In this document: in pieces, positions 142 to 56,814 of the stretch
Layout of the letters: every line of letters begins with the position of its first letter
Position numbering within the stretch: the stretch's first letter is position 1
Origin: Rhizoclosmatium globosum
Lineage: Eukaryota > Chytridiomycota > Chytridiomycetes > Chytridiales > Chytriomycetaceae
Direction: 5' to 3'
Length of the DNA: 64,000 nt
Assembly: GCA_002104985.1 (NCBI GenBank)
Contig: MCGO01000019.1
Coordinates: 248,001-312,000 of the forward strand
Program-made: the position numbers and the translations under genes
The notes under the pieces: model-generated
Databases searched by the model: none
What the model was told of the DNA's origin: nothing
The model's input: the letters and a program-made list of their open reading frames with translations, nothing else

Positions 142-289
142 ATGTCCTGTTCGACAGCATTCACAGTCTGGGACGCCAGCGGTGCCGCAGACTTCAGTCA
201 ATGCTTTGAAGAGAAGTAAGTTATAACGTACTTGTGTTTTGTGGCTGACTGAGTGAAACCCAGCGTCCTCTCAGTTGTTGTGTCATCAG
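142..289 (+). pseudogene. MRP/ABCC transporter, 5' fragment cut off by the transposon
   Basis: This is the N-terminal end of the ABC transporter whose remainder begins at 7418. Exon 1 runs from the ATG at 142 to 215, a 48-bp GTAAGT...CAG intron follows (216-263), and exon 2 starts at 264 and is interrupted after 289. The peptide contains DFSQCFEEN, matching the conserved (D/P)F(T)QCF motif at the start of YCF1/MRP proteins. No in-frame ATG lies between the upstream stop at 43-45 and 142, so 142 is the best start. Past 289 the frame enters the transposon and stops within about 15 codons. Inserted DNA therefore separates the promoter and first 33 codons from the rest of the gene. The identity is firm because the reading frame and the family motif continue exactly across the insertion. 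Confidence 0.85.
278..289 (+). repeat. Target-site duplication, left copy
   Basis: The 12 bases TTGTGTCATCAG are repeated at 7418-7429. In the rejoined transporter exon this sequence occurs once and codes for part of the first membrane segment. Confidence 0.9.
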
Positions 290-295
290 AGCTAT

Positions 296-328
296 TTACA
301 AATGGGGGAAAATGTGGAAAGTGAGTGA
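296..328 (+). repeat. Terminal inverted repeat, left
   Basis: 33 bases around ATGGGGGAAAATGTGG match the reverse complement of 7381-7413 with one difference. Similarity fades over the last few bases toward the target duplication. Confidence 0.9.
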
Positions 329-394
329 TTGAATAGAATAGGAAAACAGAGTAAGTCTGAATAAATATGCCTTGTCTGCTACAGAGTTTGCAAC

Positions 395-480
395 CCTCTC
401 CTTTACAAAACGCACGCGGCGCGCTCGCGCGAGTATACCTCTCCTTTACAAAACGCACGCGGCGCGCACGCGCGAGTATA
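395..480 (+). repeat. Two tandem 43-bp GC-rich units in the transposon's left end
   Basis: Two adjacent copies (395-437 and 438-480) each hold a run of alternating CG that is close to self-complementary, followed by GAGTATA. They sit between the left TIR and the minisatellite. They could be transposase binding sites, but that is a guess. Confidence 0.75.
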
Positions 481-606
481 TGCACCCATGCCTGGCGACA
501 CGCACGTAAATACGTATACGCAGCATTACAAGACGTCTGCTTGTCGGTGTACCCTTCATTTTTCTACCCTTTCTTTCGTCCATCCTTCTGTTATCCATTA
601 AGTCTC

Positions 607-1110
607 TCGAATCAATCTTTCAATCCTTCAATTCACTCACTTGCTCTATTCCGTCTCTCCAATCAATCTTTCAATCCTTCAATTCTCTCACTTGCTCTAT
701 TCCGTCTCTTCAATCAATCTTTCAATCCATCAATCCTTCAATTCACTCACTTGCTCTATTCCGTCTCTCCAATCAATCTTTCAATCCTTCAATTCTCTCA
801 CTTGCTCTATTCCGTCTCTTCAATCAATCTTTCAATCCATCAATCCTTCAATTCACTCACTTGCTCTATTCCGTCTCTCCAATCAATCTTTCAATCCTTC
901 AATTCTCTCACTTGCTCTATTCCGTCTCTTCAATCAATCCTTCAATCTTTCAATCCTTCAATTCACTCACTTGCTCTATTCCGTCTCTCCAATCAATCTT
1001 TCAATCCTTCAATTCTCTCACTTGCTCTATTCCGTCTCTCCAATCAATCTTTCAATCCATGAATCCTTCAATTCACTCAATCCTTCAATTGTTCAATCCT
1101 TCAATTTGCG
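607..1110 (+). repeat. Left subterminal minisatellite of the transposon
   Basis: About ten imperfect copies of a 50-60 bp pyrimidine-rich unit containing CAATCAATCTTTCAATCC and CACTTGCTCTATTCCGTCTC. Unit lengths alternate through loss or gain of a CAATC-type block. Long open frames here are repeat artefacts. The unit is recognisably the reverse complement of the right-hand array at 6640-7165, so the two arrays form a long imperfect inverted repeat. Confidence 0.9.
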
Positions 1111-1149
1111 CAATTTTTCTTTGTCATTTAATCACCTTACCTTCAACGG

Positions 1150-4100
1150 ATGTCTGAACTTTCAAGCAGCCAACCCTGTGAATCATGTGGAATTGAATCG
1201 GGACCCAGGAAGACAGACAGGATTCCAGAAAGAATTCGATTGTGCCAGTCGTGCTGTTACTGCAGATCCTGTCGTGGCACCTTCATCCCAAAACAGCGGG
1301 AAAAGACTTGTGGCTCCTGCTTAGATAATAAGGCGAGAAAGAAAATGAAAGCAGGATCAGAGGTGAATGTCCAGTATAACTGTATAAGTTTTCTGTTGAC
1401 CAATACGAAAGGTGCCTCCCATAATGGGATCACTGCAATCACCCTTCACCTGGAAATACATCCTTGCAATGCCGAATGAGAACTTTAAACAACTTCCAGA
1501 GACGTTTTATGCTAAAGCAGTACCAGAATCAAGTGACACTGCTATCACCTTAGATATTTTGCAGAAGATAGAGGGATTGGGATACCGCTTTAGGTACGTA
1601 GCGTCTCATAGATCACCGCATACTTACTTAGAATAGTCGAAGCACTGGGGGTTTCTCGATGAAGGACGGTGGCCGATCATATTACTTCAGTTGTTTACAA
1701 TCGCTCGAGTTTCACAATGCCAAACATGGCGCAAGGCTCCGGGCACGGATCAATCATATTGTGTCAAATTCGGTTGCCAAACCGCATAAATCTCGTCAAA
1801 GTATGGAGCGGTTTCCATGTGCTGGTCGGCTCATTGTGACTTGCTGTGAAACTCACGTTGAAGTGACTTACAAGCACACCGATCATGCCTACTACCACGA
1901 TTGTAGTCTTCCAGAATCATCTAAATCTGTGATTGAAAAGATGGTGAAAAGTGGACACCAGTTGAATGACATTACACGTGCTGTTCTTGACGGAATTGTT
2001 GGCGAAGTATGATCGTTCTGTTATTCCACTAAGACTGACTATTTAGAATAGGTTAAATTTACAACCAAAACTATTCGAGACTATTATGACCGACTTACTG
2101 AAAAACTGTGGAAGTTGGATCCAAATGATCCTTGGAACTCGATACGCCTCATGGGTGAATCTGAATGTTTGTATTCTGCTTTGAGCAATCCGATTTCTCA
2201 AACTGACTATATTTGATATAGTAGGGAGATCTCTTGTCTCGCGCATTCAGATGGAAAACGTTGAAAACATAAAAATGGAAGCTTTTGTTCTTTCAAATAT
2301 ATTCAAAGAATACGCTAGCAAGGTTTCAGAGGTCGGGATCGATTCAACATGTGAGTTATTGATTAGTTTTTGGTTAATATTCTGAAATCAGTCCAGGGAA
2401 TACAACGTCAAACAACGTTGAACTTTTTGTTGTGATGGGATATGTTCCAATCATTGGTGCAGGAGTGCCGCTGGCATTTCTTTACGTAAAAACATCTATT
2501 CCGGATTACGAGCGCCGCAAACAATTAAAGACCAAAGTTCTCACAAGCTTTCTTTCTCATCTCAGAGATCACGGAGTTTCACCACATACTACCTTGTCGG
2601 ATAAGGATTTTGCCGAAATCAATGCGTTAAAGTCAACCTGGCCTCTGGCAAAACATCAGCTATGTTATTGGCATTGTAACCGCGCCATCAAGATTCGCTT
2701 ATGCTCTCGAGAGAAAGCTCCTCGTAACTACAATGTGGAAGAGGCTCGTGCCTTGTTTTCATTCATTGACAGTGATTTTGTCCCAATTAATCAAGCCACA
2801 AGAATTTGGGAAGACCCACCTTCCACTCCTCTGAAGCCCATTAAGTTACGTATTTCGCCACAATACGTGGATGATGTGGATCCTAGCTCGGAGGGAACTG
2901 AGTCGGAAGCTGAAAAAGATGCAGAAGATGTTCGACAGTGAGTCATGTACTGTTGAGTTAAACCTTATATGTCTAATGCCTCAATATAGCATTATTAAAA
3001 ACACATTCAACAAAGATTACTGTGACATGTCAGTTGCTGAGGTTAAGTCTGTGTTCAAAGCTTTGTCTGATTTCCACGAAGAAATGCGCCTCAACTGCTC
3101 TGATTGGTCATCTGATGAAGCAGATGAATTCCAATTTTTAGAGCTTGCGAATTTAGTTGTGGACCATCACCAAGACCTTTCGAGTGTTTCTAAACGCACT
3201 TCTACGGCACCCAACAAGACTTACGTTTTCTGCCCAGCTCCACACAGGGCACTCATCATGAGGCTCTTTTCAAGACATTTTTGCTTCCATCCTCTGATTT
3301 ACGAGAGAGATATTCAATTCACAACAGGAGAGAGTGTGTGGGTACATGCTGTGAAAGAAATGTACCATCATTGTTATCGAAATCGACTTTGTGAAGTTTG
3401 GGCATACTTGTGGAATGAATGGTATCGACCTGGCCGGTGGGAGCTTTGGATGCGTGCTTCACGTGCCAACTTCATTTCAGAAAAGCGGACTACCATGATG
3501 CTGGAATCATTTTTCCGTGCACTAAAGTGCGTTGATTTATTAGAAGTGCGCCGCCCTCGTCTGGATCGTCTTTTCTTCATTATGTTGCGGAAAACAATTC
3601 CAAGGACAGAATTCAATTATTTGAGGTCAAATTTCCGCCATATCGTTATGACCTCTGCTCAACGAGCAATGAAAAAGTCTTGGATGAATCTTTTACAGCG
3701 AAGAATACTCGGAACTTATCACACAGACGTTACTACATGGTCGTGTAACTGTGGGAGTCTTAAATACAACCCCTATCTTCTATGCAAGCACTTAGTTCAA
3801 CAAGCTACAGTTATGATGACCTGTCAGTACGATACACCCACAAACTCATTAACTTTGGATCAGCGTGCGGCTCTTTTGGATGCCGTTCATGGTTCATTCT
3901 TCCTTACAGTAAAACCTCAAACAATGCAGCCATTCTACAACATTCCCTTATATATGCAATCGACCAAGCAAGCCGGTATATCCAGCGAATCTGCAGAATT
4001 GTTAACTAGTGCAGGATTTCCAAGTGTGAGATTCGATACAGAAGAATCTGTCAATAATACTGTCAATAAGGAACAAATGCTTGCAACATTGCAGAGAATG

Positions 4101-4283
4101 CACGACCTTGTTTCAAGCCAAACCAATGAAACCTTTTTGGCACGTTTGAATAGTGATGTCATTAGCCCAATTCAGGTCTATGAAAGAAAGTTACGCGTGG
4201 CATTGAATCTGAGGAAGCCACGTACTTGGGATGCTAAATATTCAGTTGCGTGGGGTTATGAAGGTGACACAGACGAGGTTTGA
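1150..4283 (+). CDS. Mutator-like transposase, intact, seven exons
   Basis: Transposase expected to cut and join the element's ends in the nucleus. Exons: 1150-1362, 1412-1593, 1637-2006, 2052-2154, 2222-2350, 2397-2937, 2990-4283; introns are 43-67 bp with GT...AG ends and phases agree throughout (2832 nt, 943 aa). Residues 1-71 form a cysteine-rich zinc-binding-like region (CESC, CQSCCYCRSC, CGSC). The MULE core follows: D330 in GIDSTWNT, the GYVPIIGAGVPLAF strand, D401 in LSDKDFAEI, CYWHCNRAI, and E685 in MMLESFFRALK. These fit the MULE DDE layout. A SWIM finger CxCx10CxH follows (C765, C767, C778, H780). An acidic linker lies near residues 500-515. All catalytic residues are present, so the gene is probably active. 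Starting at 1150 keeps the Cys-rich exon; a later start is possible. Confidence 0.88.
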
Positions 4284-4642
4284 ATATGACATTGAAAATA
4301 AATGTTGTTTCGTTTCTTTACCTTTAATCTAAAACGTGACATAATAATGATATTCACTACAAGCGCATGTGATGCTTTGAAATTGTAGGGTGGCATCAGG
4401 CAGGTGACCAGTGGATGTTTTGGGAACAACAAAAGATTAGGTAAAAAAATATATCAGAGAACTTCAAAATTTGATTAAAACATAGATTTGTGTAAACCTG
4501 TAAGTTAATGACCCATTCTCTCGGACAGTGTCCAGAATTTAGGTGGGTGGCAGTCTGGGTGGCAGACGTCAGATGAGCACAACAGGCTGTTGCGGGAGAC
4601 AAATTGCAAAGCAGCAAAAACCTATATATATTTGGCAGAGGA
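4284..4642. other. Spacer between the two transposon genes
   Basis: About 360 bp with no convincing coding content. It should hold the transposase 3' end and the promoter of the second gene. An AT-rich CTATATATAT tract lies only some 12 bp before the second ATG, too close to be a standard TATA box. Confidence 0.5.
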
Positions 4643-6517
4643 ATGAGCGAAGGAACGGAAATGGACCAACAAACTCCTGGAACCGCATCAACTCAACCCC
4701 CTCTTTTGCTGGAGGAAGATATTGATACAGCCTGTGCCATGGATGTAAGGATCTCTTTGATTATTTCTATATCAACGTGTATTCTTCAAGGCTACTGTTA
4801 TGCCAGAAGTTTTCCGCGGGGTGTACACTGAGCTAGCGGAAACAAACGTCAATCATGGAAATCCTTGGATGTACTTTGTCTGTACTGTCCCTTTAGTAGG
4901 TTTGATATTTGGTCAGGACTGTTCATCCAACGCTTCGTTTTAGGTGTTTTGGTCTCTGTGTAACTCCGCCGTTCGCATCACTCCAACGTGGAAACCTGTC
5001 ACAATGATAAGCATTGAGATCGTTGGGCCTCCTGGAACTGGAAAGTCTACCATGATCAAGGAAGCAACAAGAACTTTTGCCAAAGCTGTATAAGTGGCCG
5101 AGAAATGAAATCCTTGTCTGACCTTGTATCTTACCAAACAGAGACGAGTTATCAAGATTGCAAACGGACTTAAGCGCCTACCAAATTCGTTTGATATGGA
5201 TGCCGCTCATATCACTTTTGAGCTATCAGATGTTCCGATCAATATGCTGGCGTTGGAATTTCGCAACCAAAACAATCATGCGCTCAAGTTTATGGATGAG
5301 CTTGGAGTAACGTTGATATCTATTTCTATAGCCCCTAACCTGAGTTATAGCAATTCTGGGAAAAGGCGAAAGACAGAGCCCACGCTTCCCAATACTGCTC
5401 ACTGATTGACTGTCTGCCACTTACACTTCCATCCACACGCCAGAGTAGTCAAATTGAGTCTGAGCCTCTCTCGCAGTTGGAGTATTCTCGCTTTGCAATG
5501 TTTGGCGCGACAACAGTAAGATAAAGTTATCATAAAATTCCTCTAATCTGACTAAATGCTTCTCAGACAAAATCAAAAGTAAACTACACGTCTAAAGCTC
5601 CCATTGTTGATAGTGGATTACTGTATCGTTTCCATACCTACTTACTTGACCCGAAAGCGTTCCTCCCGTTCAATATGGACACTGCAAGAAAGACTTACCC
5701 TCAAAACATCATCCCCTTGATGATTAGTACCATATATCTGCTTTTTAGGGACACGCTTGTGCCTGGTATGTGCCTTGTTTTCCTTCACAGTGGTGCTAAG
5801 AGTCTTACAGGCGGGGAACAATTTGAATTTCGCATTCAAGAAGGCGCTGCTTTTGAAAAACTCGTATTCGATATTCAACAAAAGGAGGGTATTTTACGTG
5901 ATACCAAGAATTACAGTGAACACTATCGTGAGCTTGCAAGCAAACACAAACAATCCCTCGCTGTTTATTCTGTAGCAGTTCACGTTGTCACTTGCTTTTT
6001 TCAACTTTGTGCTCAAAGGTTCAATATTGTTGAAGGAGATCCGACAGAGAAGGGATTCTGGGGTGACATTGATTTATGGGATAATGCTCAGTTGGCAAGA
6101 AAGGCTATTGAACTTGCCAAACACATGAGTTCTCCTACCATGCGCAACAGATTATCTGAAGTATCGTTGGAATCGTTGAATGGAGCCGCCACACTTGTTA
6201 ACGCTACAACCAACAGTATGTTGCATCTTTTGTCTCTTTCAAACTGCAGCACTGGTTATAGTACGAGGTACACATTTCTATTTTTTTTATAAAACTTCTC
6301 TGACTTTACTTATGCAGAGCCAAAGTCCAGTGAATCGGTTGCTGCCAAGAACTTAAGTGGGAAAAAGGTTAAAGCCAAAGCTCGTAAATATGTTCCTTCT
6401 CCATTGCAACCAACCAGAAGCTTTGACCAGGCGGGCGAGGGCAAATTAGCAATCTCGAAACGAACTTGCCGCTCTGTTAAGACATTGGATTACGCTGAAG
6501 ACGGTGATTCCGAATAA
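4643..6517 (+). CDS. P-loop ATPase-like passenger protein of the transposon (DUF3987-like)
   Basis: Predicted exons 4643-4744, 4791-4895, 4944-5087, 5142-5306, 5351-5515, 5567-6215, 6318-6517 total 1530 nt (509 aa) with consistent phases. Walker A is GPPGTGKST at residues 97-105, preceded by a hydrophobic stretch. A candidate Walker B, LKFMDELGQFW, spans the 5306/5351 junction. The C-terminal half has a helical KHKQSLAVYSVAVHVVTCF region followed by an ARKAIELAKHM helix, as in DUF3987 ATPases found beside primase or helicase modules in bacteria and phages. The tail is basic (GKKVKAKARKY) and may be nuclear-targeting. The last intron (6216-6317, 102 bp) is long and may hide an 18-base exon. 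The gene lies between the two minisatellites, so it belongs to the element. The family call is from motif layout only; function is unknown. Confidence 0.6.
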
Positions 6518-6639
6518 TGACCGTGTTGTTATTCAAACCATAATTTATTGTAGTGCTATTTATTTGAAGTGATAAGTGAGCAAATTTATGTGATTGAAGT
6601 GAAATATATGTGATTGAAGTGAATCGACGTTTTGATGAG

Positions 6640-7165
6640 CAAATTGATTGAATTGACGGATTGGATTACAGAGAGGGATTGAACAAAAGACAAAAGTGAG
6701 CGAATTGATTGAATTGACGGATTGATTAGAGAGAGGGATTGAACGAACGATGAAAGTGAGCGAATTGATTGAATTGACGGATTGGATTACAGAGAGGGAT
6801 TGAACAAATGACAAAAGTGAGCGAATTGATTGAATTGACGGATTGATTGGAGAGAGGGATTGAACGAACGATGAAAGTGAGCGAATTGATTGAATTGACG
6901 GATTGATTGGAGAGAGGGATTGAACGAAACGATGAAAGTGAGCGAATTGATTGAATTGATGGATTGATTGATTGGAGAGAGGGATTGAACGAACGATGAA
7001 AGTGAGCGAATTGATTGAATTGATGGATTGATTGGAGAGAGGGATTGAACGAAACGATGAAAGTGAGCGAATTGATTGAATTGATGGATTGATTGATTGG
7101 AGAGAGGGATTGAACGAACGATGAAAGTGAGCGAATTGATTGAATTGATGGATTGACGGATTGTA
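6640..7165 (-). repeat. Right subterminal minisatellite of the transposon
   Basis: About nine copies of a roughly 60-bp purine-rich unit containing GTGAGCGAATTGATTGAATT and GAGAGAGGGATTGAAC. Read on the minus strand it resembles the left array (CCAATCAATC and CACTC-type blocks shared). Minus-strand open frames across it are repeat artefacts. Confidence 0.9.
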
Positions 7166-7325
7166 GGATTGTACGACTGATTGGACTGGGTTGAGAGAGG
7201 AAGGAAAGAGGAGAGGTTGGTGGGGAGGGGGGCATAAAATACGCGAAGGAAGAACAAAAAAATGCGTACGGAATAAGACACCCTGCGTGCGGTATTGCGT
7301 GTGATTTTCGAAACATCATGTGTAT

Positions 7326-7368
7326 ACATCTTCCGCCCCTCGTGAAAGAATGAAGACGCGGAAGATGT
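7326..7368. repeat. Small hairpin near the transposon's right end
   Basis: Perfect 11-base arms, ACATCTTCCGC at 7326-7336 and its complement at 7358-7368, are separated by 21 bases. The hairpin lies about 50 bp inside the right terminus and has no clear left-end counterpart. Confidence 0.6.
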
Positions 7369-7380
7369 GTGTCAACTCAC

Positions 7381-7413
7381 TCACTCACTTTCCACATTTT
7401 CCCCCATCTGTAA
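7381..7413 (-). repeat. Terminal inverted repeat, right
   Basis: Partner of 296-328 in inverted orientation, with 32 of 33 positions identical. Confidence 0.9.
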
Positions 7414-7417
7414 TCAT

Positions 7418-7429
7418 TTGTGTCATCAG
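7418..7429 (+). repeat. Target-site duplication, right copy
   Basis: Identical 12-bp partner of 278-289. The transporter frame resumes here; the apparent GTG start at 7420 is only a valine codon inside the interrupted exon. Confidence 0.9.
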
Positions 7430-10400
7430 CTGCCATCCTCTTTGCAGCTTTCAGATTGACCTACCTCCGTCACAAGAAAGTCATTGAACCTCGTCTTACA
7501 AAATGGCATATCACTGCCAACAGAATGACCTCTTTGCTATCACTTATTGCATCTCTTGCTGCTCTTATCCTTGCCGCCATCTCCTCATCTTCTAGTGGTT
7601 CAGTCACTTTGGCTGCCGCTTTCTCCGTTGCTGCCTCCATCGGTGCAGCTGCTTCCCTCTATGTTGAACACACACGTTTGGCCCGTGCTTCCACTGGACT
7701 CATGCTCTACTGGCTCTTTGCCTTTATCGTATGGGTCATTCGCATCAGAACCCGCTTTGTATTAGGACAGACTGATGCATTGGTCTATGTTTTTATTGTT
7801 CAAGCTGTCTTGAATGCCGTATCATTCATCCTCGAGAACATGACATTCGTGCAAGACTTTGAAACTGGAAAAAGGGTCCGTCCAACTCCTCTTGGTTCAA
7901 ACGTGAACGTCTTTTCTCGTGTAACCTACTGGTATATGCAGCCGCTTCTTGTAAAGGGCGCGCAGAAGGAACTGGAACTCGATGACCTGTGGAAGCCAGA
8001 CCGCAGTCAGTCAAGTTCTGCAATCATTAACCGCTTCCAAGTTCGCTGGAAGGCGGAAATTGAATCTGCAAAAGGCAAGGACAAGAAGCCTTGGTTGATT
8101 CGTGCGCTTTTGTTGGCCTTCTATCCGGCTTTGATTGTCGGCTTCTTCCAGTACTGGATTTCTTTCATCTGTGTGTTTATCCAGCCTATGCTGCTCGACA
8201 GTATCTTAAGTTTTATCGCTGACCCTAATGGAAAGAACTATATGGGATACATTCTTGCTGCTGCCATTTTGCTTAATGGTATACTGAATGTCACAATGAA
8301 TATTCAGCAATTTATTACTTCTTTGGGTGTAGGGTGAGTTTTCATTGAATGTTTAAAATGGGGCTGACGATGAAACAGGTATCAAATTCGTTCAGCCCTT
8401 TGTACCTCCATTTTCCGCAAGTCTCTCAATCTCACCAACACTGCTCGTCAAGCTACATCCACTGGTCATATCAACAACATGCTCGCAGCTGACACCCAAC
8501 ACGTGATGTGGTTCATGGTTGCTTTCTTTGACCCAATCGGTATTCCAGTCAGAATTGCCGTTGCAATTTACTTCTTGTGGCAACAACTCGGAGTCGCTTG
8601 TCTCGCCGGTCTCGGTGTCATTCTCCTCGCGATTCCTATCCAAGCTGCGATTGGTAAAATCCTCATGAATCGATTTGACGAAAAGCAATCCCGCGGAGAC
8701 GTTCGTATCGAAGTCGTGAACGAAACTCTCGCTAGTATCAAGCTGCTCAAGCTTTATGGGTGGGATACTTTGTTCCATAAGAGAGTTAGTGATTCTCGTC
8801 AAGAGGAACTCAAGTCTATAAAGTCTATTGGTATCATGAAGTCATGGGAGACCTTGGTCGGCTCGGTTGCTCCTCTTTTCGTTTCGTTGGCGTCATTCGC
8901 TGTTTACAGTATCATCAACACTGCTCCAGATCAAGCTCTTAATGCTAGTCGTATTTTCGTGTCCTTGTCTCTGTTCAATATCTTGTCTGAGCCCATTATG
9001 TACCTCGGTTGGATTTTCGCAACAGGTTCTGCTTGTTACATTTCGCTGAATCGTATGCAAGAGTTCTTGCTCTTGGAGGAGTTGGATGATTCTAATGTCA
9101 AGCGTGAAATCGCCAAGGATGGAAACGTTATTGCTGTCAAAAATGGAACTTTCAAGTGGGATGCTGCTGCTGAAGAATCCACGTTGAGCGATATTAATAC
9201 GGTGCGCACTAATGTCCACTCTTCGAAACACCTAACCCTCGTCATCTGTAGACTGTTCCTCAGGGATCTCTGACGGCTGTGATTGGTCGTGTTGGAACTG
9301 GAAAGAGTTCGTTCATTTCGTCGCTTCTTGGTGATATGCACAAAGTCAGCGGTGAAGTGCGTGTGTCCGGTTCTGTTGCCTACGTAAGTCAACAAGCTTG
9401 GATTGAGAATGCCACAATCCGTGACAACATTTTGTTTGGATCTGAATACAATGAGAAGAAGTATCAAGGTAAAGACTCACCTTTACCTAAACAATGCCTT
9501 AATCTGTATCTTTAGCTGTCATCGATGCATGTGCTCTCCGTCGAGACTTGACCTTGTTAGTGTCTGGTGACATGACGGAAATTGGAGAAAAGGGTGTCAA
9601 CCTTTCCGGAGGCCAGAAGCAGCGTCTTTCCTTGGCTCGTGCTGTCTACAATGATGCTGAAATCTACCTGTTGGATGACGTTCTCTCTGCTGTTGACGCC
9701 CACGTCGACAAACACATTTTCGACAATGTCATCGGCCCACGTGGAATGCTCAGTGGGAAGACTCGTGTCTTTGTCACTCACGGAGTTCACCATCTTCCAT
9801 CTTGCGACAAAATCATTGTCATCAAGGACAAGACGATCGAACAGCAAGGCTCTTACCAAGAACTGATTGACCAAGAGGGAACTTTCAAGGTCTTGATCGA
9901 AGAGTTTGCTCATGATGTTGTAATGGAGAAGGAGGACGGAGACGACAAGACTGATTCCAAGGATTCTATTGAAACCAAGGTTGTTGTTGATGATAAACAA
10001 GTCAGCGTTGTCAAGGCTGAAGAAGTTGATGAGAAGGAAGAGGAGGGAAAACTCATGACCAAGGAAGAAGCTGGAAAGGGTCTTGCCAAGGCTTCCGTCT
10101 TTGTCAAGTACATGCGGGCTGCTGGAATGTCTTGGGTCATTCTTTCTTTCGTTTTGCTTGTTGGTTCTCAAGTTGCGACTGTCGGAACTGGTATCTGGTT
10201 GACCAATTGGTCCTCTGGTAGTGGAACTAACACTACAGGCTACTACCTCGGCATTTACGGATTCTTGGTCATTCTCGCGTCCACGTTGAGTCTGTTCACC
10301 AACTTGACCATGTATGTCAAAGTTGGGCAAAACGCTGCAAGAGTCCTTCATTCGAATATGTTGGAAGGTGTCATGAACTCGCCAATGTCATTCTTTGACA

Positions 10401-24272: not shown

Positions 24273-24451
24273 TTCTTGCTGTCGCTCCTGCTTCAGGTCT
24301 GCCGTCGGACGTCATCGGTTCCAAACATTTATCAAAGAATTGTCACTGCAAGTAAGTCAACCAAGTAAATAATAGATAGCGCTTTAAATAACAAAGCAGT
24401 CTCAAATAAAATTAGAGTGAAAGGAAAAGAAATAGATGAATTCAAATGAAT

Positions 24452-26420
24452 TTAGTGCTTGGCACCGAATTGAGATTCAGTCACACCAGCACCCAATGCA
24501 GCAGTAGCAGTCACACCTCCCTGGACAGTACGAATCAAGTTATCGTAGTATTCAGCGCCAGACCACTTTTGGTGAGTCAAGGTCTCCACGCCGTTGGCGC
24601 GCTCTTGACGTTGAATACCCTCGACGTAGGCAAGCATACCACGAGCAGCGTAGTCCTTGGCAAAGTTGTCAGAGATGAGAGCGTTGGAGTGGAACTAAAT
24701 TTGAGTGTTAGATTACTCGAATGACAATGACAATAGAATAACAAACAACTTACACCAGCCAATGTGATGAACTGCCAGACGAATCCAAGACGTCCCAACT
24801 CTTCAATGAATCCTCGGATCTGAGCGTCGGTCATACCGGCGGCGTCCCAGTTGAAAGATGGGGACAAGTTGTAAGCCAACATGACGTTGGGGTGAACAGA
24901 GAGAACTCCGGCAGAGAATTCCTTAGCCTGGGAGAGGATTGGCTTAGCAGTCTCCATCCACAAGAGGTCAGAGTATGGAGCGTAAGCAATAGCACGAGAG
25001 ATACAAGCTTTAGTTCCACCCTGGTAACGGAAGTAACCCTCACGAACTCTTGGCTTGTTCCAGCACCAGTATGGGTCGACACCGAAAGACTTGGCAAGCT
25101 TACGAGCCTCGGAGTTTGACAATGAGTTGGCCTTTGCGGTGAACTCGGCAATCTGGGCATCCTTCTTTGGGTTGTTGGAAGCCTTGAGGGCTTCAATGAC
25201 GGCAGCAGAGTAGAGCTTGATTCCAGCGGCAGCAACCCAGTCAGCCTCAACCTTTGCAAGAGCAGGACCGATTTTACCGGCAGCCTGAGCATCCTCCATC
25301 ACCTCGGCAAGAGGTCTCTGGCTCGCGTTAGTGGAACCAAGAATGAAAGCGTGGTCACGACGATCAATGTTGGAAGTGATCAAAGTAGCAGCCTCCGCAT
25401 CAGTTCTGGAAACAATAATGTTTCCACAGCCATGATATCAAACTGAAGACGAACAGCAACGAGACGGTTAATGTGCTCTTGGACAGGGACCAACACCTTT
25501 CCAGCCATGTGTCCACACTTCTTGGTTCCAGCCATTTGGTCCTCCAAGTGGATTCCGGCGGCACCACGCTCAACAAACATCTTGGCAAGCTTCATGGTGG
25601 CAGTGATACCACCGTGACCCGTGTCGGCATCGGCAATAATTGGACGGAGGAAGTCGTGGACTGGTTGGGAGGCACGGGCGGAAGGTGGGAGGGAAAGACG
25701 GGCTTCGCGTTGCTTTCTGTCGTGGAATTGTTGGGCGAGGAAGAGGTGCTCAACCTTGTTTGGAACAGTGTCCATTGGGTAGTCGGCAAGGTCTGGGCCT
25801 GGCTCGTTGGAGGTGGATGCTGTTGAGGAACACTGCCATCCAGACACGTAGATTGTGTCGAGGAACTTGCCCATTTGGATAACCTGTATTTAAGATATTA
25901 GGAATCTGCAGAATAGGTTGTAGAGAGAGAAAGGGGGAAGGAAGGTGGCAGTCCATGTGGCGCGAGGCTCATGGGGGTAGCAGAAATCTGGTGAGTGAAC
26001 GTCAATCCTGAAACAACGGGTGAATCCACGCAAATCCCTTGTCTCATCCCACAGAGTTCAGTGTTCTAGTTGTTGTATAAGTACGTGCCTGGATTGGGTC
26101 AAGGGCTCCGTAAGTTCGAGAAGCAGTCTTGTTTTGGTGGTGGGTCTTGAGCAGGGACCAGAGCTTCTTGGCCTGGGTGTTGGACGCGTAGTCTTGGGTC
26201 ATTGTTCCGCGCTTAACAGCAACTGCATTTAAAAGAGGAAAGGTGGTGGGTTAGAGGCCGTGCTTCAAGGGGGTGCTGCATCAATAGTACCATCAGCAGC
26301 TGAGTATGGTCGGATAATCTGGGCAAATCTCTGAGACTTCCATCCAGCTGAAATCTGAGCAATCTGAGCTTGGAATCCCTTTTCCTCTTCAGCGAGTTGG
26401 GCGGCAGTGAGTTGTGGCAT
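24452..26420 (-). CDS. ICL1: Isocitrate lyase (apparent one-base deletion)
   Basis: Glyoxylate-cycle enzyme splitting isocitrate to glyoxylate and succinate, needed for growth on acetate or lipids. Exons 26291-26420, 26089-26222, 24754-25883 and 24452-24694. Family landmarks: [31 protein letters not shown], the catalytic [32 protein letters not shown], and the C-terminal [12 protein letters not shown]. Between FDIM (about 25430) and SRTDAEAAT the frame slips by one base; adding one base near 25410-25428 restores a 545-aa protein of normal length. The intron at 25884-26088 (205 bp) has acceptor CAG, but the phase requires a GC donor (CAG|GCACGT), a rare but known class. The AKH end resembles a C-terminal tripeptide but is not a clear peroxisomal signal. 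Confidence 0.9.
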
Positions 26421-27750: not shown

Positions 27751-30582
27751 TCATGAAGGTGGCTGCTGCGCCTTCCAATAGTCGCGATTCGTCTCTAGAT
27801 TCCTGATCGCCTCAAAGTCATACTCCTTGGCTCGAAGGAATACATCCAATGCTTCATACAGTGGAATCACGATATAGTCAACAAATCCAACTTGGCACTT
27901 TGGAATAAATGTCGTTGTCCGATCCATAAACATGGAACGGGATAGCCAGATCGCTTTTCCTCATCTCCTTGTTTGAAAAACTCTTCCATGATTTTGAAAG
28001 CCCATTTCTTGCACACCTCCAATCCTTTGGCCGCGTTCGAAATGTCTCCACATTTGATGAAAATATTGAGGGCCAACTGTCTGTCCTGGGCACTGTTGAA
28101 GTCCAATGCTCCTCCGCCACTACCACCACCACCTCCTCCTCCTGAATTATTGTTGTTGATCAATCCATTCACTTTGATTTTGAATTTGGCAATATATTCA
28201 AAATGGTTGGACATGTCTGTTGTCCGTGTCAGTGTAAACACCAGACACTACTATTTTACAACAATAATACCTGTCGCAAGAACCATGGACACAATTAGTT
28301 GGCGTATCGTCTTTAATTTATCTGCGGGAAGTCTCTTGAAAATATCACAGCCAGGATTATTGATCATAATCTCAAATGCCGTTGCACAGTGATGCGACTC
28401 TAATACGGCAATATCATTGTACCGCAACGCGAGTGGGTGTCCCGTCGATACCAAGTATGCATTAGTACGCCTGGATGATCCACATCATGAATTGCCGCTG
28501 CTATAATTCCTGCAAAAATTTCCTACATTGGGAGGGTTGTTCATGCTGCACAGATATCAGGGAGGCTTACATCTTGCTTAAAACTCCCCTCAAGTCCAAG
28601 AGAGGTCAAGAAAAAGTTCATGGCGTGAAGACATCGGCTGCGTGTAACGCTGAATGATATGGAAGGGGTCTGTATTTGGATTCAATTGTTTTGAAGAAGC
28701 TCTGAACTACTTGTTCATCAAGGTTATAAACTTCTATGAAACCATGCTTCCGGAATGCTGCCATAGCGACTGGTACAGAGGTAATCCTGTAATATTCAAC
28801 TGTCAATCTGACACTTGATCGGCAACACTCAAGAACTCATACCATTTGTCAACCTCTCGAGTTCAAACAAATCAAAATTCCAGGATCCAAATTCTCAAGT
28901 AATTCTGCAATTTTTTGATCATTCGCCTGCATCGTGCGTGGAATCTGAGTAATCACTGGTCCCTTTTTGGAATCTTCCAACGATCCTAACCCCACAGCCC
29001 CATACAAAGACTGACTATCCGTATTCTGCGCAATCATAGCCGTCAACCAAGTCTTAACATCACTATCCACAGCCCCCGCCCCAAAATCCAAATTCGGCAA
29101 AAACAACTGATTCGACGACAAAATCTGCACAACATAATCCAAACTCTCCATCACATCCACATCCAAACTCCTCGCCTCCTGCATCGCCCGAATACTCTTA
29201 TCACTTTCGTGATGGGCGAATCCAGGTCCAAGTTCAGTCTTTCTGATCCCTGCTTCCCACGCAGTTTTGTTTTCATTCTTGGTTCTGTTTTTCGATGCGT
29301 GTGCGTTTGCGGAGCGGGAGAGGAGGTTGATGGCGTAGTCGTGGATGTAGAGTTCGAGAGGAGGAAGCAGGCGCCAAGGAGGAGGATTCCGGATAGGTAG
29401 GTGATTTCTTCGGAGGCGGTTATTTTGGAGGTGTAGCCGACTTGGCAGGTTGTTGCGGTGAGGGTTTTCGAAGCGGATCCTTGGGGATGGAAGAGCATGG
29501 GGCGGTTTCGCGGTAAATTATTCTGGTGGCAGGAGCAAAGGTTGCTGAGTATACATCTGTTGCGAAAATATTGCTTGTGAGGAGGATGAGGCAAATGTAT
29601 ATGACTATAATATTTTTTAGAGATGTTAACCACGAAATCGAGTTGTCACCTATAAATAAGAGTGTCGCTGCAATGACGTGTCTTCTCAATGTTGTAATTC
29701 CAATTTGAATGTTGTTTGTCATCAAGGAAATGAACCTAGGTGGTGGGTGTCAATTCTCAAAATTCGGACAGGAAATCTTACCAGGCTAAAGAAAATATTA
29801 TATGGGCATCTCTTAGCATCAAATGAAATACTGTATAAGGAATAAATGACAGATACAGTGGGGCCATCGTGTTCTCATTACGGAACAGAAAGAGGCGACT
29901 AAGTTCCCAGGCACATAGCTCGTGTATATATCTGTCGAATTAAATCAACGTAGATCAAATAAGCCAAATTAAATAACGCTTACATAGGGGATATGTCCAC
30001 CACCAGATATAAGTCCATTCTGAAAAGTGTAAACAAATGAGCATAATCCCAAACCAAATGTAGTGACACATCATCTATCCAGACAGAAAGTAAGCTCAAA
30101 TATTAGAGAATAAACTCTCTCCTCACTTCAAACTGAATAGGCCCCCGAATAATCTCAAAGCTGTCATCAGACGCACTCGTTGCTTCAGCCGGAGCAGATT
30201 TCAGCTGAACCGAGCTCTGCATCGAGTTACCCGTTGGAGTTTTGGCAAGAGGACTTGTCCCGCCATGCCCGAATTTCACTTCACTCAAGTTTCTTGGAGT
30301 GGACGCGTTTGAGACTCCGACCATCGGTGTCGGTGGTTCGAGGAAAGATGCAGAGTGTTCACTGGATGCTATCGTTGATGCGACAGAGGCATGTTTACTC
30401 ATGGTGGTGATGATGGGCTTTTGTTGGGTGTTTATTGAATTTCGATTGGTTTGCGGCGGGCTTGTAACTTGTTTGGCTGTGGCGATGACTGGAGCTGTTG
30501 TTGTTGCTTCGTTTGATTGTGGAGAAATGGAGGGGTTTGGACGTATGACTGGTGGAAGTCTGCCTGTGGGTCGCGATATCAT
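27751..30582 (-). CDS. Class I cyclic-nucleotide phosphodiesterase with N-terminal membrane region (several apparent frameshifts)
   Basis: Hydrolyses cAMP and/or cGMP. The catalytic half (27751-28810) carries the metal and active-site landmarks: YHSALHAADV, IHDVDHPG, VLESHHC, LATDMSNHFEYIAKF, KCGDISNAAKG and VGFVDYIVIPLYE. Upstream (29370-30000) are hydrophobic helices such as NIIVIYICLILLTSNIFATD and YLSGILLLGACFLL, then a low-complexity N-terminus starting at 30582. The protein is thus probably membrane-anchored with a cytosolic PDE domain. A Gly/Ser/Asn loop interrupts the domain near 28130. Reading through requires adding one base at about 27935, 28472, 28622 and 29370. Each slip falls inside a conserved motif that continues in the next frame, so sequence error is likelier than introns, but four in one gene leaves decay open. 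Confidence 0.75.
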
Positions 30583-42620: not shown

Positions 42621-45600
42621 GCTTCCTTGAGTGAGTCCGGCCAAAAGCTAAAACCACTCAGAATGTATTGTTAAAGGCTGCCCCATCACATTCTGCACCA
42701 ATTTGGGTGTCTTTTGTGCTTCCTTGAGTGAGTCCGTTTTTTCACTTGCACACCAAGAACCACACACTGCCAAAAGCTAAAACCACTCAGAATGTATTGT
42801 TAAAGGCTGCCCCATCACATTCTGCACCAATTTGGGTGTCTTTTGTGCTTCCTTGAGTCAGTCCGTTTTTTCAGCAGTCACTTGCACAGAACCAACCACA
42901 CACTGCCAAAAGCTAAAACCACTCAGAATGTATTGTTAAAGGCTGCCCCATCACATTCTGCACCAATTTGGGTGTCTTTTGTGCTTCCTTGAGTCAGTCC
43001 GTTTTTTCAGCAGTCACTTGCACACCAAGAACCACACACTGCCAAAAGCTAAAACCACTCAGAATGTATTGTTAAAGGCTGCCCCATCACATTCTGCACC
43101 AATTTGGGTGTCTTTTGTGCTTCCTTGAGTCAGTCCGTTTTTTCAGCAGTCACTTGCACACCAAGAACCACACACTGCCAAAAGCTAAAACCACTCAGAA
43201 TGTATTGTTAAAGGCTGCCCCATCACATTCTGCACCAATTTGGGTGTCTTTTGTGCTTCCTTGAGTCAGTCCGTTTTTTCAGCAGTCACTTGCACACCAA
43301 GAACCACACACTGCCAAAAGCAAAACCACTCAGAATGTATTGTTAAAGGCTGCCCCATAATTCTGCACCAATTTGGGTGTCTTTTGTGCTTCCTTGAGTC
43401 AGTCCGTTTTTTCAGCAGTCACTTGCACACCAAGAACCACACACTGCCAAAGCAAAACCACTCAGAATGTATTGTTAAAGGCTGCCCCATAATTCTGCAC
43501 CAATTTGGGTGTCTTTTGTGCTTCCTTGAGTCAGTCCGTTTTTTCAGCAGTCACTTGCACACCAAGAACCACACACTGCCAAAAGCTAAAACCACTCAGA
43601 ATGTATTGTTAAAGGCTGCCCCATCACATTCTGCACCAATTTGGGTGTCTTTTGTGCTTCCTTGAGTCAGTCCGTTTTTTCAGCAGTCACTTGCACAGAA
43701 CCAACCACACACTGCCAAAAGCTAAAACCACTCAGAATGTATTGTTAAAGGCTGCCCCATCACATTCTGCACCAATTTGGGTGTCTTTTGTGCTTCCTTG
43801 AGTCAGTCCGTTTTTTCAGCAGTCACTTGCACACCAAGAACCACACACTGCCAAAAGCTAAAACCACTCAGAATGTATTGTTAAAGGCTGCCCCATCAAT
43901 TCTGCACCAATTTGGGTGTCTTTTGTGCTTCCTTGAGTCAGTCCGTTTTTTCAGCAGTCACTTGCACACCAAGAACCACACACTGCCAAAAGCTAAAACC
44001 ACTCAGAATGTATTGTTAAAGGCTGCCCCATCACATTCTGCACCAATTTGGGTGTCTTTTGTGCTTCCTTGAGTCAGTCCGTTTTTTCAGCAGTCACTTG
44101 CACACCAAGAACCACACACTGCCAAAAGCTAAAACCACTCAGAATGTATTGTTAAAGGCTGCCCCATAATTCTGCACCAATTTGGGTGTCTTTTGTGCTT
44201 CCTTGAGTCAGTCCGTTTTTTCAGCAGTCACTTGCACACCAAGAACCACACACTGCCAAAAGCTAAAACCACTCAGAATGTATTGTTAAAGGCTGCCCCA
44301 TCAATTCTGCACCAATTTGGGTGTCTTTTGTGCTTCCTTGAGTCAGTCCGTTTTTTCAGCAGTCACTTGCACACCAAGAACCACACACTGCCAAAAGCTA
44401 AAACCACTCAGAATGTATTGTTAAAGGCTGCCCCATCACATTCTGCACCAATTTGGGTGTCTTTTGTGCTTCCTTGAGTCAGTCCGTTTTTTCAGCAGTC
44501 ACTTGCACACCAAACCACACACTGCCAAAAGCTAAAACCACTCAGAATGTATTGTTAAAGGCTGCCCCATCACATTCTGCACCAATTTGGGTGTCTTTTG
44601 TGCTTCCTTGAGTCAGTCCGTTTTTTCAGCAGTCACTTGCACACCAAGAACCACACACTGCCAAAAGCTAAAACCACTCAGAATGTATTGTTAAAGGCTG
44701 CCCCATCACATTCTGCACCAATTTGGGTGTCTTTTGTGCTTCCTTGAGTCAGTCCGTTTTTTCAGCAGTCACTTGCACACAAGAACCACACACTGCCAAA
44801 AGCTAAAACCACTCAGAATGTATTGTTAAAGGCTGCCCCATCACATTCTGCACCAATTTGGGTGTCTTTTGTGCTTCCTTGAGTCAGTCCGTTTTTTCAG
44901 CAGTCACTTGCACACCAAGAACCACACACTGCCAAAAGCTAAAACCACTCAGAATGTATTGTTAAAGGCTGCCCCATACATTCTGCACCAATTTGGGTGT
45001 CTTTTGTGCTTCCTTGAGTCAGTCCGTTTTTTCAGCAGTCACTTGCACACCAAACCACACACTGCCAAAAGCTAAAACCACTCAGAATGTATTGTTAAAG
45101 GCTGCCCCATAATTCTGCACCAATTTGGGTGTCTTTTGTGCTTCCTTGAGTCAGTCCGTTTTTTCAGCAGTCACTTGCACAGAACCAACCACACACTGCC
45201 AAAAGCTAAAACCACTCAGAATGTATTGTTAAAGGCTGCCCCATCACATTCTGCACCAATTTGGGTGTCTTTTGTGCTTCCTTGAGTCAGTCCGTTTTTT
45301 CAGCAGTCACTTGCACACCAAGAACCACACACTGCCAAAAGCTAAAACCACTCAGAATGTATTGTTAAAGGCTGCCCCATCAACTCTGCACCAATTTGGG
45401 TGTCTTTTGTGCTTCCTTGAGTCAGTCCGTTTTTTCAGCAGTCACTTGCACAGAACCAACCACACACTGCCAAAAGCTAAAACCACTCAGAATGTATTGT
45501 TAAAGGCTGCCCCATGATACTCTGCACCAATTTGGGTGTCTTTTGTGCTTCCTTGAGTCAGTCCGTTTTTTCAGCAGTCACTTGCACAGAACCAACCACA

Positions 45601-48600
45601 CACTGCCAAAAGCTAAAACCACTCAGAATGTATTGTTAAAGGCTGCCCCATGATACTCTGCACCAATTTGGGTGTCTTTTGTGCTTCCTTGAGTCAGTCC
45701 GTTTTTTCAGCAGTCACTTGCACACCAAGAACCACACACTGCCAAAAGCTAAAACCACTCAGAATGTATTGTTAAAGGCTGCCCCATGATATCTGCACCA
45801 ATTTGGGTGTCTTTTGTGCTTCCTTGAGTCAGTCCGTTTTTTCAGCAGTCACTTGCACAGAACCAACCACACACTGCCAAAAGCTAAAACCACTCAGAAT
45901 GTATTGTTAAAGGCTGCCCCATGATACTCTGCACCAATTTGGGTGTCTTTTGTGCTTCCTTGAGTCAGTCCGTTTTTTCAGCAGTCACTTGCACACCAAG
46001 AACCACACACTGCCAAAAGCTAAAACCACTCAGAATGTATTGTTAAAGGCTGCCCCATGATACTCTGCACCAATTTGGGTGTCTTTTGTGCTTCCTTGAG
46101 TCAGTCCGTTTTTTCAGCAGTCACTTGCACAGAACCAACCACACACTGCCAAAAGCTAAAACCACTCAGAATGTATTGTTAAAGGCTGCCCCATGATACT
46201 CTGCACCAATTTGGGTGTCTTTTGTGCTTCCTTGAGTCAGTCCGTTTTTTCAGCAGTCACTTGCACACCAAGAACCACACACTGCCAAAAGCTAAAACCA
46301 CTCAGAATGTATTGTTAAAGGCTGCCCCATGATACTCTGCACCAATTTGGGTGTCTTTTGTGCTTCCTTGAGTCAGTCCGTTTTTTCAGCAGTCACTTGC
46401 ACACAAGAACCACACACTGCCAAAAGCTAAAACCACTCAGAATGTATTGTTAAAGGCTGCCCCATGATACTCTGCACCAATTTGGGTGTCTTTTGTGCTT
46501 CCTTGAGTCAGTCCGTTTTTTCAGCAGTCACTTGCACAGAACCAACCACACACTGCCAAAAGCTAAAACCACTCAGAATGTATTGTTAAAGGCTGCCCCA
46601 TGATACTCTGCACCAATTTGGGTGTCTTTTGTGCTTCCTTGAGTCAGTCCGTTTTTTCAGCAGTCACTTGCACACCAAGAACCACACACTGCCAAAAGCT
46701 AAAACCACTCAGAATGTATTGTTAAAGGCTGCCCCATGATACTCTGCACCAATTTGGGTGTCTTTTGTGCTTCCTTGAGTCAGTCCGTTTTTTCAGCAGT
46801 CACTTGCACAAACCAACCACACACTGCCAAAAGCTAAAACCACTCAGAATGTATTGTTAAAGGCTGCCCCATGATACTCTGCACCAATTTGGGTGTCTTT
46901 TGTGCTTCCTTGAGTCAGTCCGTTTTTTCAGCAGTCACTTGCACACCAAACCACACACTGCCAAAAGCTAAAACCACTCAGAATGTATTGTTAAAGGCTG
47001 CCCCATGATACTCTGCACCAATTTGGGTGTCTTTTGTGCTTCCTTGAGTCAGTCCGTTTTTTCAGCAGTCACTTGCACAGAACCAACCACACACTGCCAA
47101 AAGCTAAAACCACTCAGAATGTATTGTTAAAGGCTGCCCCATGATACTCTGCACCAATTTGGGTGTCTTTTGTGCTTCCTTGAGTCAGTCCGTTTTTTCA
47201 GCAGTCACTTGCACAAAGAACCACACACTGCCAAAAGCTAAAACCACTCAGAATGTATTGTTAAAGGCTGCCCCATGATACTCTGCACCAATTTGGGTGT
47301 CTTTTGTGCTTCCTTGAGTCAGTCCGTTTTTTCAGCAGTCACTTGCACAAACCAACCACACACTGCCAAAAGCTAAAACCACTCAGAATGTATTGTTAAA
47401 GGCTGCCCCATGATACTCTGCACCAATTTGGGTGTCTTTTGTGCTTCCTTGAGTCAGTCCGTTTTTTCAGCAGTCACTTGCACACCAAGAACCACACACT
47501 GCCAAAAGCTAAAACCACTCAGAATGTATTGTTAAAGGCTGCCCCATGATACTCTGCACCAATTTGGGTGTCTTTTGTGCTTCCTTGAGTCAGTCCGTTT
47601 TTTCAGCAGTCACTTGCACACAAGAACCACACACTGCCAAAAGCTAAAACCACTCAGAATGTATTGTTAAAGGCTGCCCCATGATACTCTGCACCAATTT
47701 GGGTGTCTTTTGTGCTTCCTTGAGTCAGTCCGTTTTTTCAGCAGTCACTTGCACACCAACCACACACTGCCAAAAGCTAAAACCACTCAGAATGTATTGT
47801 TAAAGGCTGCCCCATGATACTCTGCACCAATTTGGGTGTCTTTTGTGCTTCCTTGAGTCAGTCCGTTTTTTCAGCAGTCACTTGCACACCAAGAACCACA
47901 CACTGCCAAAAGCTAAAACCACTCAGAATGTATTGTTAAAGGCTGCCCCATGATACTCTGCACCAATTTGGGTGTCTTTTGTGCTTCCTTGAGTCAGTCC
48001 GTTTTTTCAGCAGTCACTTGCACACCAAGAACCACACACTGCCAAAAGCTAAAACCACTCAGAATGTATTGTTAAAGGCTGCCCCATGATACTCTGCACC
48101 AATTTGGGTGTCTTTTGTGCTTCCTTGAGTCAGTCCGTTTTTTCAGCAGTCACTTGCACACCAAGAACCACACACTGCCAAAAGCTAAAACCACTCAGAA
48201 TGTATTGTTAAAGGCTGCCCCATGATACTCTGCACCAATTTGGGTGTCTTTTGTGCTTCCTTGAGTCAGTCCGTTTTTTCAGCAGTCACTTGCACAGAAC
48301 CAACCACACACTGCCAAAAGCTAAAACCACTCAGAATGTATTGTTAAAGGCTGCCCCATGATACTCTGCACCAATTTGGGTGTCTTTTGTGCTTCCTTGA
48401 GTCAGTCCGTTTTTTCAGCAGTCACTTGCACACCAAGAACCACACACTGCCAAAAGCTAAAACCACTCAGAATGTATTGTTAAAGGCTGCCCCATGATAC
48501 TCTGCACCAATTTGGGTGTCTTTTGTGCTTCCTTGAGTCAGTCCGTTTTTTCAGCAGTCACTTGCACAGAACCAACCACACACTGCCAAAAGCTAAAACC

Positions 48601-56003: not shown

Positions 56004-56800
56004 AGCTGAGTTGTCTCCATTTAAAAAGGTTGTCCAGAGCAGTTAATGCTTCCACCAAGAGTATTACTAAGTATTTTCAAGAAATGATTTCCCCCAAATG
56101 GAGATCAATCTTTGTGGAGTATATTTAACTTGCACACATTGTTAATAGAAGTCATGACCAAGTCTCGGTTTAAGAACAGTGTACATGATTGGGTTGTGAT
56201 TGAATTTGCTGAAGATGAGGACAAGACAGAAGATCAGATCAGCGGCAGATAATTAATATTTATTCATATAATATGCCACTAAACAACAGCCACACCAACA
56301 TCCACTGCTTCCAACATCCAACCCCACACCAGCTAAAATAATTCTACCAAATATAGCTTCTAATCAATGCCGTCCAAGTATACGCTGCCACTGTCTCCAC
56401 TTTCAGATTGACATCAAAGTTTTTGTTCGCAAACACAGCTGCATTGCAACATTGTTGTTTAAGGCAAAGAGATGTTAAAGTGGTAAGGTTTGACATGCCG
56501 TGTGTAGTTGGATTGACACTGTTATTGTGTCACTTTTCTTTCTTTTTCTCTTGAAATATTAACCATCACAAGTAAGAACTCTTCCTTCTCACCCCTGAAA
56601 ACCATCTTGAATATTCCGACTATTCGGTAGAATATTCAATAGTCTTGTGCAACGCACTTGGCAAGCACAATTTTGAGGACGGCAGGGGTGTCTTTCATTC
56701 AATAATGACATACTCACGCAATATTTGTGCTGGTGATACAATACGCAATGGAGAGTCAATCAATTCAAGAGAATCACAGGGCAATGTGCATCAGAAGGGC
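56004..56800. other. AT-rich non-coding flank of the satellite
   Basis: No recognisable gene, RNA or repeat. The open frame beginning at 56645 has no family features and extends into the inverted-repeat element. Confidence 0.5.
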
Positions 56801-56814
56801 TGCTATTGTTTTTG

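Follow-up and report, generated by a model that had tools for sequence, protein, structure and literature searches.

Does a second gene lying inside a eukaryotic DNA transposon belong to that transposon and, if so, what might it contribute? The question is raised by positions 290-7417 of a 64,000-nucleotide stretch of the genome of the chytrid Rhizoclosmatium globosum (hereafter the window, C101:248001-312000; C1, C27, C41, C101 and similar labels are contigs of one 57-Mb R. globosum assembly), where a transposase gene is followed by a gene for a P-loop ATPase. Together, our results favor, at somewhat better than an even chance, a model in which this is a recently inserted two-gene Mutator-like element (MULE) whose second gene is its own, with the ATPase being a remote relative of the DUF3987 proteins, an MCM-like family, and acting as a helper module shared between transposons.

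Window 290-7417 is a single insertion containing two intact genes. An empty site on C41 matches the joined flanks at 199 of 201 bases, with 2 mismatches and 0 gaps. Syntenic blocks of 12,773 bp (95.7%) and 11,816 bp (96.5%) stop and start at window positions 289 and 7418, and the two blocks overlap by 12 bp on C41 at the insertion point. The target-site duplication could be shorter than 12 bp, since the outermost bases of the element are ambiguous; MULE target duplications are typically 8-11 bp. Five other paralogous loci (of 17 match rows), aligned to the joined flanks, run uninterrupted through the junction at 73-90% identity. The disrupted host gene encodes an ABC transporter (TMD0_ABC, E=9e-12) and was hit within an exon that reads through in one frame when the element and one copy of the duplication are taken out. 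In view of the empty site, we set aside both an assembly join and an ordinary host gene. Whether C41 represents the other haplotype or a segmental duplicate, the conclusion is the same. On a larger scale, synteny links C41:30-60 kb to C101:230-268 kb (long blocks at 95-97% identity, short blocks at 89-95%), and in this region the assembly seems to contain either both haplotypes or a large duplicated tract.

The element ends in terminal inverted repeats (TIRs) of 42 nt each that are 90% complementary. The inverted-repeat scan of the 64-kb window reported two inverted pairs of at least 40 nt, of which the TIRs are one, and led us to set aside chance repeats as their source. Thus, the TIRs, the duplication, the empty site and the intact frames bear out the original prediction, made from the letters of the window, that a MULE transposase and a P-loop ATPase lie within one set of TIRs and target duplications. 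As we found only one full copy of this MULE in the assembly, the evidence for mobility is the empty site; a single copy is no bar to MULE status. A solitary copy of the TIR lies at C1:993102-993126; it matches the right end at 97% across 39 bases, has no partner end within the 9.5 kb compared, and is either a remnant or a cut-down element. With up to 3 mismatches allowed, the pattern search for the TIR gave 3 matches, compared to 2 for a reversed control pattern. Since this count is insufficient by itself, the C1 match is credible because of its extended identity.

The transposase has 0 internal stops over 946 amino acids and matches the Pfam MULE domain (PF10551) with E=4.3e-10 and 40.4 bits against a cut-off of 27.6. 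Its motifs are D333, D404 and E688, followed by a SWIM-type finger (C768xC770 ... C781xH783), and its cysteine-rich N-terminus is absent from the public annotation. The prediction of a complete MULE transposase with a catalytic triad and a SWIM finger thus held, while the residue numbers given for the triad (D330, D401, E685) were each 3 too low. Database searching returned nine matches, consisting of its own annotation and eight proteins with 29-37% identity, of which six are named basidiomycete proteins and two are unnamed. Across the nine-sequence alignment, D404, E688 and the CxC..CxH residues are invariant, and D333 is present in all eight rows that reach it (one row is too short). Scans of viral contigs with the transposase or its alignment gave 0 matches.

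The second gene includes a 45-nt intron, and the resulting model is identical to the public hypothetical protein BCR33DRAFT_784344. The protein carries Walker A (GPPGTGKST) at residues 97-105 and DE at 169-170; together with the eight-exon frame, these agree with the prediction of a second intact spliced gene with Walker A and a candidate Walker B. Third-position GC content is 0.42 in the ATPase gene and 0.41 in the transposase gene, compared to 0.48 in the host exon, values that are weakly compatible with a shared home for the two element genes. We detected no other copy of the transposase in the assembly and no second copy of the ATPase, including as a host gene. Thus, we saw neither a transposase repeated without the ATPase nor an ATPase gene in ordinary host surroundings, the two outcomes that the original prediction had named as telling against it. 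The protein database yielded no chytrid relative of either protein beyond the genes themselves, and tblastn of the ATPase against phages gave 0 matches. One viral-contig match (L044) was rejected as a chance match, as it sits in a phage tape-measure-like gene.

To which family does the ATPase belong? Its top Pfam match is DUF3987 (PF13148), at 20.3 bits against a cut-off of 27. As this score is under the cut-off, we do not file the protein as a family member and call it remote DUF3987-like. The same genome holds clearer DUF3987 genes, two kinds of which adjoin transposases of other types. C27, C73, C368 and C146 carry near-identical copies of an element, with 97.6-99.7% identity in their main aligned blocks; its integrase-like open reading frames (ORFs) are all on one strand, and the opposite strand encodes a DUF3987 protein (76.2 bits against 27). 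The C27 element spans 52645-57090 (4,446 bp), with inverted repeats matching at 24 of 27 positions (52639-52665 and 57070-57096) and CACGTG, a likely 6-bp duplication, on both sides, and the host frame is continuous without the element; ends, duplication and host frame were checked in the C27 copy only. Since its transposase domains are under their cut-offs (rve 21.5 against 32.6 bits, H2C2 15.9 against 25.5), the element is named integrase-like only, and not as a member of Ginger, IS481EU or IS3EU. The C73 copy is missing about 170-180 bp inside the ATPase gene. On C212, a spliced minus-strand DUF3987 gene (45.4 bits against 27) adjoins a plus-strand transposase gene, which we name KDZ-like only because its KDZ domain is under the Pfam cut-off (22.1 against 26.6 bits). 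Tandem arrays in inverted orientation flank this gene pair, one at about 308462-308787 and the other at about 314104-314771; TIRs, a duplication and outer ends were sought for the C212 element and none were found.

In all, the clearer DUF3987 genes adjoin transposase genes at five of eight loci, the surroundings of the other three (C301, C101:67 kb and C52) being unread. Those three are further DUF3987-like matches (C301:148346-149726, C101:67054-68434 and C52:95696-95947) with 29-38% identity to the C27-type ATPase, and the C301 and C101 loci give identical match rows. Candidate DUF3987-like rows at C373 and C190 were dropped, as no related protein could be seen there by eye. Because relatives above the cut-off occur in two other transposon types, the module appears to be a helper shared between transposase superfamilies.

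With the C27 and C212 proteins as bridges, the window ATPase aligned with the DUF3987 family across its ATPase module over 265 columns (Prob 94, E=1.4e-7), with a score of 61.8 compared to at most 21.8 in 30 shuffles. When the two bridges were combined with 31 bacterial sequences, the comparison gave a 299-column alignment (Prob 92.6, E=4.4e-7) with a score of 58.4, compared to at most 23.1 in 40 shuffles; these E-values are for single profile-profile comparisons and are not database-search values. In both alignments Walker A is followed, in the same order, by an acidic motif, a glycine-arginine motif and a lysine segment near the C-terminus. No control scored higher than 30.2, compared to 61.8; the six were a GTPase, a helicase, AbpA, an integrase, the transposase and the reversed protein. 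The DUF3987 relationship, based at first on the P-loop, was retained only in the light of these C27 and C212 relatives.

For a fold, we modeled a bacterial DUF3987 representative (L097) from alignment A5, and all 50 fold-comparison rows, ranked by VIA-align, were MCM by title. A5 used 21 loci, drawn from 23 checked (22 of them stop-free) of 39, with the 16 others omitted as close relatives, short matches or plant-associated genera. Since the row of the window ATPase in A5 is correctly placed around the P-loop only, we draw no claim about the window ATPase from it. One study predicts that DUF3987 proteins serve mobile DNA as replication helicases (PMC5862659). The results support, but do not prove, a remote kinship between the window ATPase and the DUF3987 (YfjI) ATPases that bacterial mobile DNA carries, whose family has an MCM-like AAA+ helicase fold.

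How could such an ATPase serve a transposon? Tandem arrays lie near both ends of the window element (Table 1). The left and right arrays share six 12-mers in inverted orientation and none in direct orientation, compared to a mean of 0.03 and a maximum of 1 in 200 shuffles. In each of the three elements compared (window, C27 and C212), the ATPase gene is followed on its 3′ side by a tandem array. For C27, the array (52806-53355) is about 60 bp past the ATPase stop codon at 53416, and for C212 it is 0.1-0.6 kb past the gene, depending on the true gene end. Staphylococcal islands, as described in PMC7581432, have short-repeat origins just downstream of their rep genes, and the island Rep helicases bind the repeats. 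By analogy, the ATPase may form a ring that is loaded at or near the element ends, perhaps at the arrays 3′ of its own gene in the manner of iterons. Once loaded, it could melt or translocate DNA and so aid the pairing or processing of the ends or the copying of the element, with the transposase performing cutting and joining. A broader proposal, which we consider speculative and on the whole unlikely, is that at least three unrelated types of chytrid transposase (MULE, integrase-like and KDZ-like) share an MCM-like DUF3987 helicase from bacterial mobile DNA that loads on iteron-like arrays close to the element ends, allowing these nominally cut-and-paste elements to unwind or copy their DNA and making them partly replicative.

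Several results weigh against our favored model, beginning with the sub-threshold Pfam score given above. Without bridges, the whole ATPase gave Prob 23 (P=0.00087) with 10 bacterial proteins and Prob 65 with 31. Compared to C27 alone it gave P=0.0097, to C212 alone P=0.037, and to both together P=0.002 over 42 columns. Residues 130-509 alone gave P=0.36 with the 10 bacterial proteins, and residues 60-260 aligned with them out of register. With the P-loop masked, the alignment stayed in register over 212 columns but scored only 30.1 (E=0.0043), and the ATPase without its P-loop scored 30.6, about the level of the unrelated helicase control (30.2). The masked score is no higher than that control, and much of the DUF3987 signal comes from the P-loop. 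The protein modeled as MCM-like is bacterial; the single-sequence model of the window ATPase had a predicted local distance difference test score (pLDDT) of 32.5 and was discarded. Searches of 5.8 billion proteins returned only the window ATPase itself, the first having scored only the 8000 candidates that share the most words and the second having used residues 145-330 to keep the P-loop from swamping the results. Thus, such an ATPase is so far seen together with a transposase of this type in this element only. We infer that the ATPase works with DNA at the element ends, its helicase action at the arrays being putative.

The pairing also looks infrequent. Nine rows in the assembly match the MULE domain, and an ATPase was detected only at that of the window, with no DUF3987 gene detected at the eight others. 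Similarly, among 26 KDZ loci (30 rows), a DUF3987 gene was detected at C212 and at none of the 25 others. For the C27-type transposase, four of five loci have the gene; the fifth, C113, consists of transposase fragments with no ATPase detected. This five-locus count excludes 27 of 38 rows, where identities of no more than 37% point to other integrase-like genes that match only weakly. All of these counts are lower bounds, as our searches for DUF3987 genes can miss divergent copies. With the gene detected at so few MULE and KDZ loci, the module looks optional and not standard in either group. Two other MULE families are present as near-identical copies of about 4.1 kb (C1:54-66 kb, C368:189-199 kb, C39, C149 and, in part, C201); these have unassigned ORFs upstream of the transposase, where no relative of the ATPase was detected.

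How much of this could be explained in other ways? The masked-P-loop result bears most directly on the view that the protein is a P-loop ATPase of a family still unassigned, its likeness to DUF3987 being mostly P-loop. Because the masked score did not exceed the helicase control, we gave this view more weight, and our favored model less, than we would have otherwise. It also fits the score under the Pfam cut-off and the nearly as good scores of AAA models (AAA_30, E=0.0038; AAA, E=0.0058). Against it, the 265-299-column alignments keep the motif order, the controls reach no more than 30.2 compared to 61.8, and the masked protein stays in register; the helicase control aligned over 19 columns only, compared to more than 200 in-register columns for the P-loop-less ATPase. 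We therefore hold it to be a real, if minority, possibility. MULEs capture genes, and the ATPase could instead be a passenger taken from the host or another mobile element, with no more of a role in transposition than the gene fragments of Pack-MULEs. Its single occurrence in the genome, the lack of a detected partner for the basidiomycete relatives of the transposase and the damaged ATPase gene in one of the four C27-type copies would all suit such cargo. However, the gene is intact across eight exons, no host source copy was detected in the assembly, and its clearest relatives adjoin other transposases, one type in four near-identical copies, which is unexpected if the cargo is inert. On balance, a passenger seems unlikely.

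The original prediction had drawn a parallel with the ATPases of Tn7 and Mu. TnsC, MuB and IstB are AAA+ proteins, and an ATPase beside a DDE transposase in one element might, like them, bind target DNA and recruit or activate the transposase. The parallel gained no support: the best Pfam match is DUF3987, a bacterial member of that family models as MCM-like and the family consists of predicted replication helicases. Moreover, searches of Pfam, PHROGs, NCBIfam and PDB sequences listed no IstB, TniB, TnsC or MuB for the window ATPase, and the fold-comparison rows of the bacterial relative all name MCM; a target-choice family missing from these lists could still fit. We judge this role improbable. 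Least probable of all, and in our estimate quite unlikely, is a regulatory or anti-silencing factor that shields the element from host control. VANC of the VANDAL MULEs is a precedent for anti-silencing, and accessory genes of the TET/JBP type recur across fungal transposon superfamilies, as reported in PMC12730594. Against this view, Pfam scans of the window protein list no chromatin or methylation domain, and it has ATPase motifs instead. We thus continue to favor a two-gene MULE whose own second gene encodes a remote DUF3987-like ATPase.

Other features of the window and the assembly were noted in passing. A 136-bp satellite forms an array of about 99 copies (97% match, 13.4 kb) at window 42640-56003. 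Beside it, at 56882-57990, is an inverted-repeat element of about 1.1 kb with 44-nt arms (56902-56945 and 57934-57977) that are 86% complementary, and more inverted similarity is visible by eye outside the arms. At C3:24.4-28.5 kb, a KDZ domain (24436-24935) lies less than 4 kb from a weak match to the MULE domain (28225-28461), placing two transposase types next to each other.

Table 1. Positions in the window of the two-gene element, its genes and repeats, and the adjoining host exon.
Feature	Position	Strand	Details
Left target-site duplication	278-289		TTGTGTCATCAG; up to 12 bp; identical to 7418-7429; one copy only at the C41 empty site
Left TIR	296-337	+	42 nt; element start at about 290
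GC-rich 43-bp tandem pair	395-480	+	2.0 copies
Left subterminal tandem array	602-1106	+	Repeat periods near 51, 59 and 110 bp; opposite in orientation to the right array
MULE transposase gene	1150-4283	+	946 aa; 7 exons; BCR33DRAFT_784343 (annotation lacks the first 75 residues)
Transposase exons	1150-1362, 1412-1593, 1637-2006, 2052-2166, 2225-2350, 2397-2937, 2990-4283	+	
DUF3987-like P-loop ATPase gene (P0001)	4643-6517	+	509 aa; 8 exons; equals BCR33DRAFT_784344
ATPase exons	4643-4744, 4791-4895, 4944-5087, 5142-5306, 5351-5515, 5567-5765, 5811-6260, 6318-6517	+	
Right subterminal tandem array	6636-7156	+	Periods of about 61, 121 and 125 bp; starts 119 bp past the last base of the ATPase gene
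Right TIR	7372-7413	-	42 nt; element end at about 7417
Right target-site duplication	7418-7429		TTGTGTCATCAG
Remainder of the interrupted host exon	7430-8337	+	ABC transporter, TMD0 region

Eukaryotic DDE transposons are usually thought to rely on host replication and repair. If our favored model is true, some such elements would supply DNA melting themselves, through a dedicated ATPase from a family of replication helicases that unrelated transposases share within one genome. The modeled MCM-like fold of a DUF3987 protein is also a useful lead for an uncharacterized bacterial family.

How does this element compare with known systems? With MULEs generally it shares TIRs and a long target duplication, and with the SWIM-finger MULEs of Trametes, Lentinus, Tulasnella and Bondarzewia it shares the MULE domain, the D/D/E residues and CxC..CxH, at the 29-37% identity to eight proteins given above. 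Its inverted subterminal arrays and its chytrid host distinguish it from these fungal elements, as may its P-loop ATPase gene. MuDR (mudrA/mudrB), Mutyl (MutB) and MULE-Co resemble it as MULEs with a second gene; to our knowledge, mudrB is unrelated to the window ATPase. According to a MULE survey, elements with a second ORF include MULE-Co, where it is of unknown kind, and Mutyl, where it is MutB (PMC6446971); in the main text of the survey, no ATPase is named among such ORFs and the word ATPase is absent. As far as that text goes, the ATPase is unlike the second genes named there, in keeping with what the original prediction had supposed for mudrB.

The DUF3987/YfjI ATPases of bacterial plasmids, prophages and phages resemble the window ATPase in motif order, in a remote profile match and in their association with mobile DNA. 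The window protein differs in scoring under the cut-off, in lacking the greater part of a region that follows the P-loop in the majority of the aligned bacterial proteins, and in its DDE transposase partner. To MCM helicases and the MCM-like helicases of mobile elements (SCCmec Cch, DUF927), the likeness is in the modeled fold of the bacterial DUF3987 representative; the chytrid protein is known here from sequence alone. The chytrid arrays might serve as do the short repeats that, according to PMC7581432, island Rep helicases bind just downstream of their own genes. In the open-access literature, a scope that leaves most subscription journals and Repbase reports outside, no eukaryotic DNA transposon was found described as carrying an ATPase of the DUF3987 or MCM-like kind, and the papers that mention DUF3987 concern, by title, bacteria, archaea and phages. 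MULEs with second ORFs and helper genes that span fungal superfamilies are already known. A parallel in organization is offered by the TET/JBP dioxygenase genes of many fungal DNA transposon lineages, where one accessory family accompanies unrelated transposases (PMC12730594). The chytrid ATPase differs from these in enzyme class, host lineage and likely function, and would extend to another gene family the rule that accessory genes move between fungal transposon superfamilies.

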